DNA from: an uncultured Solirubrobacterales bacterium
GTDB lineage: Bacteria > Actinomycetota > Thermoleophilia > Solirubrobacterales > 70-9
DNA length: 64,000 bases
Assembly (NCBI GenBank): GCA_903939845.1
Contig: CAJAIJ010000053.1
Coordinates: 37,889-101,888 of the forward strand
Direction: 5' to 3'
Part shown: piece by piece, positions 2,801 through 17,980 of the stretch
Layout: each line of letters starts with the position of its first letter
Numbering within the stretch: the stretch's first letter is position 1
Made by a program: the position numbers and the translations under genes
The notes under the pieces: generated by a model
What the model was told of the DNA's origin: nothing
Databases searched by the model: none
Seen by the model: only the letters and a program-made list of their open reading frames with translations

Positions 2801-5866
<3,066 letters not shown>

Positions 5867-13458: not shown

Positions 13459-14415
13459 TCAGGGGCAGAGATCGGGTCTGGACCGATACCACTCGAAGGC
13501 CTCACGCAGGCCGGTATCGAGGTCCGTCCGGGCACGCCATCCCGTCAGGTCGAAGAGGCGCGACGGATCGACGAACTGGTCGTCTATCTCGCCCTCGGGA
13601 GGACCGTCTGCGAGCTCCGACTTCCCGAACTCGTTCCCGGTCGTCCTGCCTGTCGCCTCGATGACGTCTGCCACAGACGTCGGAATTCCAGTTCCTGCGT
13701 TCACTGCGAGACCGTGGCCACGACCTGCGGCCAGAGCATCGGCGAGGGTGAGGTAGGCCGTGACCGCGTCGGACACGTGGAGAAAGTCCCGTCTCGGTGA
13801 CCCGTCGGAACGAAACCTGGGCTCGCGCCGATGGACGGCGGCCGCCATGAGTTCCGGCACGATCCGGGAGAAGTTGAGATCGCCCCCGCCGTAGACGTTG
13901 GCGAGCCTGGTGACCGCGACCGGAACCCCTGCGGCAGATGAATAGCTTCTGGCGATGACGTCGGTTGCAGCCTTGCTGGCCTCATAGGTTGCCGCCGGCT
14001 CGAGCGGCTGGTCCTCACTGTAGGGAAGCGATGTAGAAGGACCGTAGGCCTTGTCGGAGGATGCGACGACCACCGCCTCGGGGCCGGCCGCACGACAGGC
14101 CTCGAGGACTCTCCAGGTTCCCTCGACGTTGCTACGAAAGGTGCCGAGGGGATCGCTGGCGGCAGGTCCGACCAGTGTCTGGGCCGCGAGGTGGAACACC
14201 CGGTCCATGCCCGCGACCGCCGAGCTCGTCACCGCCCCGTCCGCGACATCCCCGGAAATCACCTCCACCTCCTCGAGGATGCCACGAGCCGAGAGTCCGG
14301 CAAACGAAGGTCGAGGGAGGTCGAGCACCCTGACGTCGTCGCCCCGCTCCAGGAGCTCCATGCAGATCGCGCTTCCGATGAAGCCCTGACCGCCCGTCAC
14401 GAGGACTTGAGCCAC
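13459..14415 (-). CDS. NAD-dependent NDP-sugar epimerase/dehydratase
   Basis: From GTG at 14415: VAQVLVTGGQGFIGSAIC (GxxGxxG), YEASKAATD (YxxxK), RRDFLHVSDAV. Downstream of an RfbF-like gene. Confidence 0.88.
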   Translation of the reverse strand: MAQVLVTGGQGFIGSAICMELLERGDDVRVLDLPRPSFAGLSARGILEEVEVISGDVADGAVTSSAVAGMDRVFHLAAQTLVGPAASDPLGTFRSNVEGTWRVLEACRAAGPEAVVVASSDKAYGPSTSLPYSEDQPLEPAATYEASKAATDVIARSYSSAAGVPVAVTRLANVYGGGDLNFSRIVPELMAAAVHRREPRFRSDGSPRRDFLHVSDAVTAYLTLADALAAGRGHGLAVNAGTGIPTSVADVIEATGRTTGNEFGKSELADGPPEGEIDDQFVDPSRLFDLTGWRARTDLDTGLREAFEWYRSRPDLCP

Positions 14416-15110
14416 GAAGCCCTCCCCTGGTCCCAGAGATCGTTGACGGCGACAAGATCCTTGTAGGTGTCTACGCAGTCCCAGAACCCGCGATGGCGGT
14501 AGGCCATCAACTGGTCGGCGGAAGCGAGCCCGGTCAGCGGACCCTCCTCGAGCACGTCGTCCTCCTCGATGAAGTCGAGCGCCCCGGGCTCCAGGCAGAG
14601 GAAGCCGCCGTTGATCCATTGGTCGACCCTGGGCTTCTCGACGAAGGCCTCGACACGGTCGTCCTCGCCGATCCTCGCCACTCCCCACTGGAGATTCGGC
14701 CTGACGGTGGTCATGGTTGCGAGGCGGCCGTGGGACTGATGAAAGGCCAGCAGTGCCTGAAGATCGATGTCCGCGAGACCATCGACATAGGTCAGGCAGA
14801 AGGTCTCGTCTCCGATTGCGTCAGCCGCCCTCCTGACCCTCCCGCCGGTCGGCGTGTCGAGGCCGGTGTCGAGCGCCGTGCATTCGATCCCGTCGAGGGA
14901 AGGCTCCGAAGCGATGTAGTCCTCGATCATCTGGCCGAGGTAGCCGGTGAGGAGAACGAAGCGTTCGAACCCCTGGGTCCTGTAGATGGTGATGACGTGC
15001 CAGAGCAGGGGCCGGCCACCGACCTCGACCAGGGCCTTCGGCAGCTCACCGGTCTTCTCCCGAAGACGGGTGCCCCTGCCGCCGCAGAGGATCAGGACCG
15101 GGGGCTTCAG
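14397..15110 (-). CDS. Sugar-nucleotidyltransferase, glucose-1-phosphate cytidylyltransferase (RfbF)-like
   Basis: LKPPVLILCGGRGTRLREKTGELPKALVEVGGRPLLWHVITIYRTQGF...FCLTYVDGLADIDLQALLAFHQSHGRLATMTTV...WINGGFLCLEPGALDFI...YRHRGFWDCVDTYKD. No ATG/GTG/TTG start upstream of the conserved N-terminus; candidate CTG at 15110. Confidence 0.85.
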   Translation of the reverse strand: MKPPVLILCGGRGTRLREKTGELPKALVEVGGRPLLWHVITIYRTQGFERFVLLTGYLGQMIEDYIASEPSLDGIECTALDTGLDTPTGGRVRRAADAIGDETFCLTYVDGLADIDLQALLAFHQSHGRLATMTTVRPNLQWGVARIGEDDRVEAFVEKPRVDQWINGGFLCLEPGALDFIEEDDVLEEGPLTGLASADQLMAYRHRGFWDCVDTYKDLVAVNDLWDQGRASWLKSS

Positions 15111-15376
15111 CCGCCGGCCACGGCGGGCAGGATGGTCAGCTCGGACCCGTCTTCGACGATCGTTTCGAGCCCATCTCCGAAACGAATGTCCTCGCCTCCG
15201 AGATAAACATTCACGAATCGCCTCAGCTGGCCGCCTTCGGTGATCCGCTCCCTCAGGTCGGGACTCTCGAGAAAGAGCGCCTCGAGGACCTCGCCGACGG
15301 TCTCGCCGCCGAGTTCGACTTCGGCCCTGCCGCCGGCAGAGGGCCTCAACTGTGTGGGGATCTTTACGGTGACCAT
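15107..15376 (-). CDS. MoaD/ThiS-family sulfur carrier protein
   Basis: 89 aa, beta-grasp-like MVTVKIPTQLRPSAGGRAEVELGGETVGEVLEALF...VYLGGEDIRFGDGLETIVEDGSELTILPAVAGG; diglycine C-terminus. Confidence 0.9.
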   Translation of the reverse strand: MVTVKIPTQLRPSAGGRAEVELGGETVGEVLEALFLESPDLRERITEGGQLRRFVNVYLGGEDIRFGDGLETIVEDGSELTILPAVAGG

Positions 15377-15379
15377 CGT

Positions 15380-16615
15380 TCAGGCGAAAGTGGTCGCGAA
15401 AGTCGATTCGAAACTCTCGACCGTCGGTTCTATCTCGCGGAGCGAGAAGGTATCGCGATTTGCGTCGAGGGTCTTGAGACCCTCGCCGGTTATGTACACG
15501 ACGACCTTCTCACCGTCGGCGAGTTCGCCCCGCTCAGCCAGCTTGGCGAGGACGGCAGTGGTGACTCCGCCCGCCGTCTCGGTGAAGATGCCGGTGGTCT
15601 CAGCGAGGAGCCGGATCCCGGCGCGAATCTCGTCGTCGGTGACGGAGTCCACCCCTCCCCCGGTCCTCCTGGCCTGATCCAGCGCATAGGGTCCATCTGC
15701 GGGGTCTCCGATCGCGAGACTCTTGGCGATGGTGTCGGGCTTCTGGGGCCGACAGAAGTCCTCGCCGTCCCGGAATGCCGCCGCCACCGGCGAACAGCCC
15801 TCGGCCTGGGCCCCGTTGAAGACGGGCGTGTCGCCTTCGACCAGCCCAACCTCCTGCCACTCGGAGAACCCACGCCCGATCTTGGTGAACAGAGACCCCG
15901 ACGCGATCGGACAGACGACGCGATCGGGAAGCCTCCAGCCGAGCTGCTCGATGGTTTCGAAGGCCAGTGTCTTCGACCCTTCCGAGTAGTACGGCCGCAG
16001 GTTCACGTTGACGAAGGCCCAGGGCTTCTCGTCCGAGAGCTGCGTGCAGAGCCGGTTGACGTCGTCGTAGTTGCCCTTGACACCCACCAGGTTGCTCCCG
16101 TAGATGTCGGTGGCCAGGAGCTTTTGCTCCTCGAGGTTGGACGGAACGAAGACGTAGCAGTCGAAACCGCCGGCAGCGGCATTGGCCGCAACCGAATTCG
16201 CCAGATTGCCGGTCGAGGCACAGGCGACGGTCTGGTACCCGAGCTCCCGTGCCTTGGCCAGGGCAACCGAGACGACCCTGTCCTTGAATGAGTGGGTCGG
16301 ATTCGCGGCATCGTTCTTGACCCAGATCTCGGCACCGGTCCCGAGAGCCTCGGCGAGGCGATCGGCCTTGATCAGAGGAGTCATGCCGGGCTCCAATGGT
16401 CCGACCTCCGGCCTGCCACCGGTGAAAGGCAGGAAGTCGAGGTAGCGCCAGATTCCGTTCGATCCGGCCTGAATCCTCCTTCGCGCTTCATCCGGCTCGA
16501 GACCCGAGTGGTCGTAGCGCACCTCGAGTGGTCCGAAACACTGCCCACAGAAATAGGCGGCCCCTAAATCCAGGGTCGCTCCACACTCCTTGCATCCGAG
16601 TTCCACAGCTGACAT
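15380..16615 (-). CDS. thrC: PLP-dependent threonine synthase-type enzyme with N-terminal zinc ribbon (function may differ, see findings)
   Basis: 411 aa; CKECG...CGQC; NPTHSFKDRVV (PLP Lys), CASTGNLANSVAA; RBS AGGAAAGGA before ATG 16615. Confidence 0.88.
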   Translation of the reverse strand: MSAVELGCKECGATLDLGAAYFCGQCFGPLEVRYDHSGLEPDEARRRIQAGSNGIWRYLDFLPFTGGRPEVGPLEPGMTPLIKADRLAEALGTGAEIWVKNDAANPTHSFKDRVVSVALAKARELGYQTVACASTGNLANSVAANAAAGGFDCYVFVPSNLEEQKLLATDIYGSNLVGVKGNYDDVNRLCTQLSDEKPWAFVNVNLRPYYSEGSKTLAFETIEQLGWRLPDRVVCPIASGSLFTKIGRGFSEWQEVGLVEGDTPVFNGAQAEGCSPVAAAFRDGEDFCRPQKPDTIAKSLAIGDPADGPYALDQARRTGGGVDSVTDDEIRAGIRLLAETTGIFTETAGGVTTAVLAKLAERGELADGEKVVVYITGEGLKTLDANRDTFSLREIEPTVESFESTFATTFA

Positions 16616-16644
16616 CCGACCGTTCCTTTCCTAGTCCAAATATG

Positions 16645-16670
16645 AAAAAACCTTCGCCCGTGGGCGAAGG
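16645..16670 (-). terminator. Rho-independent terminator of the SAM riboswitch expression platform
   Basis: Minus strand CCTTCGCCC AC GGGCGAAGG TTTTTT between the aptamer and thrC. Confidence 0.93.
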
Positions 16671-16687
16671 TCCGGTCGGACTTTCCC

Positions 16688-16796
16688 CCACATCTACCGG
16701 CTGACTGCCGATGGATTTGGCACCTTCTTCGGAGACGAGCTCCGATTGGTTGCCGGGGTTTCACTGGGCCATTTCCCTCCACCCCTCTTGATGTGG
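16688..16796 (-). ncRNA. SAM-I (S-box) riboswitch aptamer
   Basis: Minus strand CCACATCAAGAGGGGTGGAGGGAAATGGCCCAGTGAAACCCCGGCAACCAATCGGAGCTCGTCTCCGAAGAAGGTGCCAAATCCATCGGCAGTCAGCCGGTAGATGTGG. P1 CCACATC/GATGTGG, P2 GGGGT/ACCCC, P3 TCGGAG/CTCCGA, P4 ATCGGC/GCCGGT; conserved ATCAAGAG, GGAGGGA..TGGCCC, GGCAACC, AAGGTGCCAAATCC. Confidence 0.95.
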
Positions 16797-16951
16797 CGAC
16801 TGCTATGTGGCCGGGAAGATAACAGAACGACCCGTTGGTCGCCGTGCCTTCGGATCATTCGGGGATGGCTCCGTGCCTTCACATCCCTTTCATGCGCAAC
16901 GACCGGCTTTCCCTTACCCTTGGGCCATGGAGACGAAGCGTTCGGAAATGA

Positions 16952-17980
16952 ATGGAGGCGGCGATGCCGAGCCTCCCTCGTCTCAAGAGGCCCCGTGAAG
17001 CGGTTCCTTCCGCTGCACCGGTGGCCGCACCCGAGATAAAGGCCCCGCGGGTCGAGGAGATCTCATCGAACGGTCTCCGCTGGTTCAACGTCGAGCAGCC
17101 CGGCAGCCTCGAACAGGCATGGCTCCAGGAGCACTTCGCCTTTCACGCACTCGACCTCGAAGATGTCCTTTCCCGGAATCAGAGGCCGAAGATCGACGAA
17201 TATCCGGACTACCTCTTCCTCGTCGTCCACATCCCGGTCTTCAACAGCAAGGTCGGGAGGCTCGGAACCGGCGAGCTGGACATGTTCGTCGGCCCGGACT
17301 TCGTGGTCACGCTCCCGAACCAGCCTCTCCCACCAGTCGAATACCTCTTCGGGAGGTGTCAGTCCGACGCAGACTTCAGGGAGGCCATCTTCGCCCGCGG
17401 TGCCGGCTACCTCATGTATCGACTCGTCGACGACTCTTTCGATTACTGCTTCCCGATGCTCCGGAAGATCTCGAACAAGCTCGACGGTCTCGAGGATGAG
17501 ATCTTCGAAGGGCGCTCGGACGATGTCGTGCGCGACATCTCGAATCTGAAGCAGGAGATCATCAACTTCCGAAAGGTGATCCGACCCCAACGGACCGTTC
17601 TGGGTGATCTCGAGAAGGTGAAAGGTCGCTACCTGACCGAGGAGATCGATCTCGAGATCTACTTCGATGACATCGCGGATGCACACGAGCGAATCTGGGA
17701 CCTGCTCGAGAACTACAAGGAGGTCGTCGTCGGTCTCGAGGAGACCAACGAATCGATCCTGAGCCACCGCTCGATGGAACGCCTCAACGTCCTGACGGCC
17801 ATCACTGTGATCGTTCTGCCGCTGACCCTGATCGCCTCGGTATTCGGCATGAACGTGGGTCTGCCTGGAGGTGGCATCCCCCAGTCCTCCGGGCTCGCAA
17901 CTTTCCTGACCGTGATCGGCGTGATGGTCGCCCTCGGCGTCGGGATGGTCGCCTTCTTTCGCATTCGGCGTTGGCTGTAG
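16952..17980 (+). CDS. corA: CorA-family magnesium/divalent cation transporter
   Basis: 342 aa; C-terminal two TMs with ASVFGMNVGLPG (GMN motif). Confidence 0.93.
   Translation: MEAAMPSLPRLKRPREAVPSAAPVAAPEIKAPRVEEISSNGLRWFNVEQPGSLEQAWLQEHFAFHALDLEDVLSRNQRPKIDEYPDYLFLVVHIPVFNSKVGRLGTGELDMFVGPDFVVTLPNQPLPPVEYLFGRCQSDADFREAIFARGAGYLMYRLVDDSFDYCFPMLRKISNKLDGLEDEIFEGRSDDVVRDISNLKQEIINFRKVIRPQRTVLGDLEKVKGRYLTEEIDLEIYFDDIADAHERIWDLLENYKEVVVGLEETNESILSHRSMERLNVLTAITVIVLPLTLIASVFGMNVGLPGGGIPQSSGLATFLTVIGVMVALGVGMVAFFRIRRWL

Follow-up and report, generated by a model that had tools for sequence, protein, structure and literature searches.

In Mycobacterium tuberculosis, the CysM-CysO-Mec+ system makes cysteine from O-phosphoserine and a protein thiocarboxylate. 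Wolinella succinogenes uses a PF01053-type enzyme, MetY, in methionine synthesis. Together with HcyS and HcyD, it forms the protein-thiocarboxylate methionine pathway of this organism (Krishnamoorthy and Begley 2011, as cited in PMC5764234). Acidimicrobium ferrooxidans was reported to be without any known route to homocysteine, its pathway being one that "remains to be discovered" (Price et al. 2018, PMC5764234). In a microarray study of Streptomyces coelicolor, SCO4293, annotated as thrC, and SCO4294 were listed among the co-regulated sulfate assimilation genes (PMC2267785).

Here we analysed a 64,000-nt stretch of DNA (the window) from an uncultured Solirubrobacterales bacterium, in which a SAM-I riboswitch precedes a gene resembling threonine synthase (ThrC) and a gene for a sulfur carrier protein. 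In our reading, to which we assign a probability of about 70%, the riboswitch represses a two-gene operon dedicated to homocysteine synthesis by the ThrC-like enzyme and the carrier, acting together with a JAB protease and MetH.

A SAM-I riboswitch with a transcriptional attenuator

The SAM-I (S box) aptamer is located on the minus strand at positions 16687-16797. In an Infernal/Rfam search of the window it matched RF00162 with 80.4 bits (E 2.4e-17; gathering cut-off 44.4 bits) over model positions 1-108 without truncation. The sequence-only reading had proposed a complete SAM-I riboswitch and had named the Infernal score as a check, and the score bears this out. The closing P1 helix that it had described, CCACATC (16796-16790) paired with GATGTGG (16694-16688) on the minus strand, was likewise confirmed by sequence and fold. 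As an RNA, the riboswitch is a typical representative of its established class, and its aptamer would be expected to bind SAM.

Sequence, fold and covariation identify an intrinsic terminator, CCTTCGCC-CACG-GGCGAAGG-TTTTTT, at 16670-16645 on the minus strand. A hairpin followed by a T6 run had been noted before and is present; the 9-bp arms given for it would leave a 2-nt loop, so that the realistic hairpin has 8 bp and a CACG tetraloop. Fold and covariation further support an antiterminator on the same strand (16660-16691), in which GUGGG (16691-16687) pairs with CCCAC (16664-16660) and GUCC (16681-16678) with GGAC (16673-16670). GUGGG belongs to the P1 3' strand and CCCAC spans terminator arm and loop; the antiterminator is mutually exclusive with both P1 and the terminator. 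When the platform was folded in isolation, the antiterminator reached -20.5 kcal/mol and the terminator -22.8 kcal/mol.

In 25 distinct leaders of the same family, the antiterminator and terminator helices were 97.7% paired, with double-sided changes at 7 pairs, compared to 25-53% paired in slid controls. The antiterminator helix was 99.2% paired, its fourth pair changing from GC to AU in 6 of the 25 leaders (GUGGG/CCCAC becomes GUGAG/CUCAC), and the 6 terminator pairs tested were 100% paired, 5 of them with double-sided changes. A simple scan found the terminator in 29 of 30 family leaders. The transcription-termination platform anticipated from the sequence is thus a standard attenuator, and the antiterminator, mentioned there as a possibility, is real and stronger than claimed, using the P1 3' strand itself. 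Plentiful SAM would stabilise P1 and make its 3' strand unavailable to the antiterminator; the terminator would then form and transcription would halt ahead of the operon. At low SAM, the P1 3' strand would pair with the loop of the terminator and its 5' arm, allowing the operon to be transcribed. Elsewhere in the phylum, the spacing to the start codon is often below 30 nt and a terminator is lacking, which suggests translational control.

The source genome contains two more SAM-I matches on the plus strand of a 5.6-kb contig with duplicated ORFs (C4; 4077-4177 with 54.9 bits and 4488-4594 with 57.4 bits), each directly preceding a small ORF.

The operon joins a ThrC-like enzyme to a CysO-like carrier

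The first gene (15380-16615, minus strand) encodes a 411-aa PLP enzyme, the predicted homocysteine synthase, which matches PF00291 with 244 bits and TIGR00260 with 277.9 bits (cut-off 167.1 bits) and has a zinc-ribbon-like CxxC...CxxCFGPLE motif at its N-terminus. Beginning 3 nt past its stop codon, a second gene (15107-15376, minus strand) that was absent from the earlier reading encodes an 89-aa ThiS-family sulfur carrier ending in AVAGG (PF02597, 55.2 bits). Judged by position, both genes would be co-transcribed. The carrier resembles CysO in its ThiS fold and C-terminal Gly-Gly, and its nearest solved structure is M. tuberculosis CysO (3DWG, E 9.6e-21). The operon is flanked by a divergent CorA-like gene, assigned by eye (16952-17980, plus strand), and an NTP_transferase gene (14400-15107, minus strand); both flanks are kept in many family relatives, with no evident functional link to the operon.

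Elsewhere in the source genome, a separate canonical lysA-hom-thrC cluster (lysA and hom assigned by eye) lies on contig C16 without a SAM-I element, and a full-length MetH is encoded on C20. On C32, a cysteine synthase gene is followed by a JAB protease gene; no second CysO was found beside this cysM-JAB pair in the source genome, and the carrier may therefore serve CysM too. In the genus to which the window belongs, metX and metY are present too, and the source genome itself encodes a PF01053 enzyme, so that both homocysteine routes may operate there. No SAM-I element was found at the three metX/metY loci of the genus that were fetched.

The S-box enzyme is set apart from threonine synthase

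A structure search returned ThrC proteins as nearest folds, the enzyme being 33-36% identical to solved bacterial ThrC and retaining the PLP-binding lysine motif SFKDR. A tree that included ThrC proteins of solved structure and the canonical ThrC of the same organisms separates the S-box enzyme, together with its paralogue, from all of these (SH-aLRT 99, branch 1.03). Among 203 ThrC-like sequences, T88L and R160Y (Tth numbering throughout) occur in 100%, S155N and N157R in at least 96%, and Q164S, N188S and A240S in nearly all, compared to 0 of 18 canonical ThrC with these pocket changes. We take T88, S155, N157, R160 and N188 to be substrate-pocket or ligand positions of ThrC, with R160 presumably binding phosphate. 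Relatives' genomes carrying the ThrC-like gene also have a canonical thrC, which is without SAM-I where examined. An AF2 model of the enzyme was of moderate confidence (pLDDT 74.7), several segments of the active site being weak, and was therefore taken for the fold only. These comparisons suggest that the S-box gene represents a separate, ancient subfamily that arose from the threonine-synthase lineage.

Ordinary thrC identity was rejected in view of the canonical paralogue, the residue changes and the tree. The sequence-only reading had seen unusual S-box control of a threonine synthase; given a canonical thrC elsewhere, a separate clade, a replaced pocket and an adjoining carrier gene, this interpretation was abandoned. 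As the gene probably encodes no threonine synthase, there is most likely no puzzle of an S box on thrC to explain.

The resemblance of the carrier to M. tuberculosis CysO, and its possible sharing with CysM, would also suit a CysM-type cysteine synthase acting on O-phosphoserine with the help of the carrier, in which case the riboswitch would read SAM as a final product of sulfur metabolism. We regard this as unlikely, as separate CysM/CysK enzymes are found in the same genomes and even in the same clusters, the enzyme groups with ThrC and not with CysM in the tree, and the missing homocysteine route described below would be left unexplained. It is distinctly improbable that the gene encodes a genuine second threonine synthase repressed by SAM, for example to spare O-phosphohomoserine for another use: the TIGR00260 score above cut-off, the ThrC folds and the conserved SFKDR are what such an enzyme should have, but it would duplicate the canonical thrC, lack pocket residues invariant in ThrC and occur in conserved association with genes of sulfur metabolism, among them that of a sulfur carrier, and there is no obvious logic in repressing threonine synthesis at high SAM.

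The ThrC-like gene may fill a gap left by known homocysteine genes

The distribution of the ThrC-like gene is complementary to that of known homocysteine genes. PF01053 (MetY/MetB/MetZ), scored at E 1e-40, is absent from 53 of 199 genomes of the class, and the ThrC-like gene is present in 49 of these 53 (Fisher p 1.4e-10, with genomes counted as independent and kinship ignored). MetX is missing from 99 of the 199, and 47 of the 50 class genomes in which both MetX and PF01053 are missing carry the ThrC-like gene. The DUF39 protein HcyBio (PF01837) was found in 0 of 52 genomes tested. The single-contig A. ferrooxidans genome (G308, 2,158,157 bp) has a SAM-I element (60 bits), the ThrC-like gene, the carrier, a JAB protease and MetH.

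A JAB protease was found in 17 of 17 cases, and most genomes tested encode a complete or almost complete MetH, among them A. ferrooxidans and four genomes that consist of a single contig. Several nearly complete genomes of one family (f9; G054, G060, G066 and others) have the ThrC-like operon and no recognisable full-length MetH, which implies that in these bacteria another methionine synthase must act or methionine is taken up.

With a divergent active site and a substrate and product that are only predicted, the enzyme might instead form some other sulfur product from activated homoserine and sulfur supplied by the carrier; a thiol metabolite, or methionine made from methanethiol, would be examples. 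Two observations make this very unlikely: the co-occurring MetH needs homocysteine, and in locus L107, a member of a sister group, a homocysteine S-methyltransferase gene takes the place of the carrier next to the gene.

Riboswitch, enzyme and carrier are conserved as a unit

An orthologue of the ThrC-like gene was present in 46 of 50 genomes of the same family, a 47th containing a short fragment only. SAM-I preceded all 29 family orthologues fetched, and at every family locus that could be evaluated the carrier gene came immediately after that of the enzyme. Of 54 class orthologues, 53 have SAM-I upstream, the sequence before the remaining one being no longer than about 180 nt, and the carrier is adjacent in nearly all class orthologues of at least 62% identity. 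In the sister group at 51-60% identity (f7, f10 and f11), SAM-I is kept and the carrier is not adjacent. Class paralogues of about 42% identity have neither SAM-I nor carrier. Within the family and the order, several genomes encode a third ThrC-family paralogue (about 42-44% identity; L112-L114, L284-L287 and others), also without SAM-I or carrier and with pocket residues of its own.

In the phylum, SAM-I was found at 29 of 39 loci, the carrier at 31 of 39 and a T-box at 1, with Streptomyces, Nocardioides and Acidimicrobium ferrooxidans among the examples of the SAM-I/ThrC-like/carrier operon. We take SCO4293-SCO4294 to be the ThrC-like/carrier pair of S. coelicolor. The T-box leader (1393-1691, 102.9 bits) replaces SAM-I before the orthologue in L151; when it is aligned to the B. 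subtilis glyQS arrangement, its specifier appears to be ATG (Met), with a TGGT bulge, and by this analogy the leader would be a methionine T-box. Among the matches listed for named records, and with a model trained on other loci, 55 of 56 actinobacterial records have SAM-I, as do 3 Chloroflexi and 1 Acidobacteria record; none was found in the remaining non-actinobacterial records among these matches, most of which keep enzyme and carrier. Most named records among the matches listed have the carrier downstream. No relatives were found in viral contigs.

Several non-actinobacterial clusters add genes for a NIL-domain protein, a ThiF-type E1, a JAB protease, cysteine synthase, PAPS reductase or cysteine desulfurase. 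In the Nitrospirota-type records L177 and L180, a canonical ThrC lies inside the same cluster as the ThrC-like gene, showing that both enzymes coexist. The NIL-domain protein is a stand-alone protein of about 80 aa (L168, L174, L177, L178, L180, L186, L188 and L216, from non-actinobacterial phyla) that could sense methionine or aid sulfur transfer. Some carriers have residues past Gly-Gly (GGC, GGR, GGRR, GGSR or GGGHD; L064, L076, L120, L126, L162, L168 and others); these would have to be removed before the carrier is activated, and the JAB protease might do this.

The f7 relatives with SAM-I and enzyme and no adjacent carrier might suggest that the second gene encodes a carrier for molybdopterin or thiamine synthesis which adjoins by chance, while the enzyme uses free sulfide. 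This is scarcely credible for a CysO-like, not MoaD-like protein whose adjacency is kept in many phyla, at some loci with E1 and JAB alongside.

A proposed pathway for homocysteine synthesis

The separate subfamily, the replaced ThrC pocket and the CysO-like carrier together point to methionine/homocysteine synthesis, the usual target pathway of S boxes. The enzyme would be a fold-type II PLP enzyme of the threonine-synthase lineage. The carrier's C-terminal Gly-Gly would presumably be adenylated and thiocarboxylated by a ThiF/MoeZ-type E1, genes for which are seen in related clusters of other phyla. With the aid of PLP, activated homoserine would lose its gamma leaving group and be attacked by the carrier thiocarboxylate; a Mec+-like JAB protease would then free homocysteine for methylation by MetH. 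The activated homoserine is most plausibly O-phosphohomoserine, favoured since MetX is absent from many such genomes and the enzyme descends from ThrC, although the replacement of R160 makes this substrate less than certain. We know of no fold-type II enzyme for gamma-replacement, which counts against the proposal.

Against synthesis of homocysteine by the operon stand the metX and metY genes of the window's genus, where the predicted route would not be unique, and the f7, f10 and f11 relatives that keep SAM-I without a carrier next door; MetH by itself could serve SAM recycling. A broader proposal, which we hold with somewhat less confidence and still consider probable, is that the ThrC-derived fold-type II PLP enzyme, O-phosphohomoserine and a thiocarboxylated CysO-like carrier, with JAB release and SAM-I control, constitute an undescribed pathway that is widespread in Actinomycetota, including A. 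ferrooxidans and Streptomyces, extends to several other phyla and has been wrongly annotated as threonine synthase. Within CC-licensed PMC articles, we found no report assigning the ThrC-like/carrier pair to homocysteine synthesis.

Significance and comparison with known systems

The riboswitch marks a probable variant of protein-thiocarboxylate amino acid synthesis that is widespread, mis-annotated and directly testable, and that may explain methionine synthesis in many bacteria without known enzymes. It provides a candidate for the homocysteine pathway missing in A. ferrooxidans (Price et al. 2018, PMC5764234): with SAM-I, ThrC-like gene, carrier, JAB and MetH all present in this organism, the RNA element leads to a testable enzyme for the gap. 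Our analysis also suggests that the name thrC is wrong for many genes that bear it, and methionine auxotrophies predicted for many uncultured bacteria would be affected.

The window element shares with other SAM-I (S box) RNAs of RF00162 all core elements, the logic of P1 competition and the intrinsic terminator; instead of a classical met gene, however, it precedes the genes for a ThrC-like enzyme and a sulfur carrier. With ThrC (PDB 1UIM, 2ZSJ, 2D1F and 6CGQ), the S-box enzyme has the fold and the PLP lysine motif in common; it differs by T88L, S155N, N157R, R160Y, Q164S, N188S and A240S, all fixed or nearly so. A NIL-domain protein accompanies both the present system and the DUF39/HcyBio pathway in some phyla, and yet HcyBio is missing from every one of the 52 genomes. 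Like the pathway proposed here, HcyS-HcyD-MetY of Wolinella passes carrier-bound sulfur to homocysteine, but the enzyme in our case is a fold-type II ThrC relative, and 49 class genomes with its gene have no PF01053 protein. The M. tuberculosis CysM-CysO-Mec+ system likewise combines a CysO-like carrier, a fold-type II PLP enzyme, a JAB protease and the logic of a phosphorylated hydroxy amino acid, whereas the S-box enzyme is of the ThrC lineage and is predicted to convert activated homoserine to homocysteine and to be under the control of SAM.
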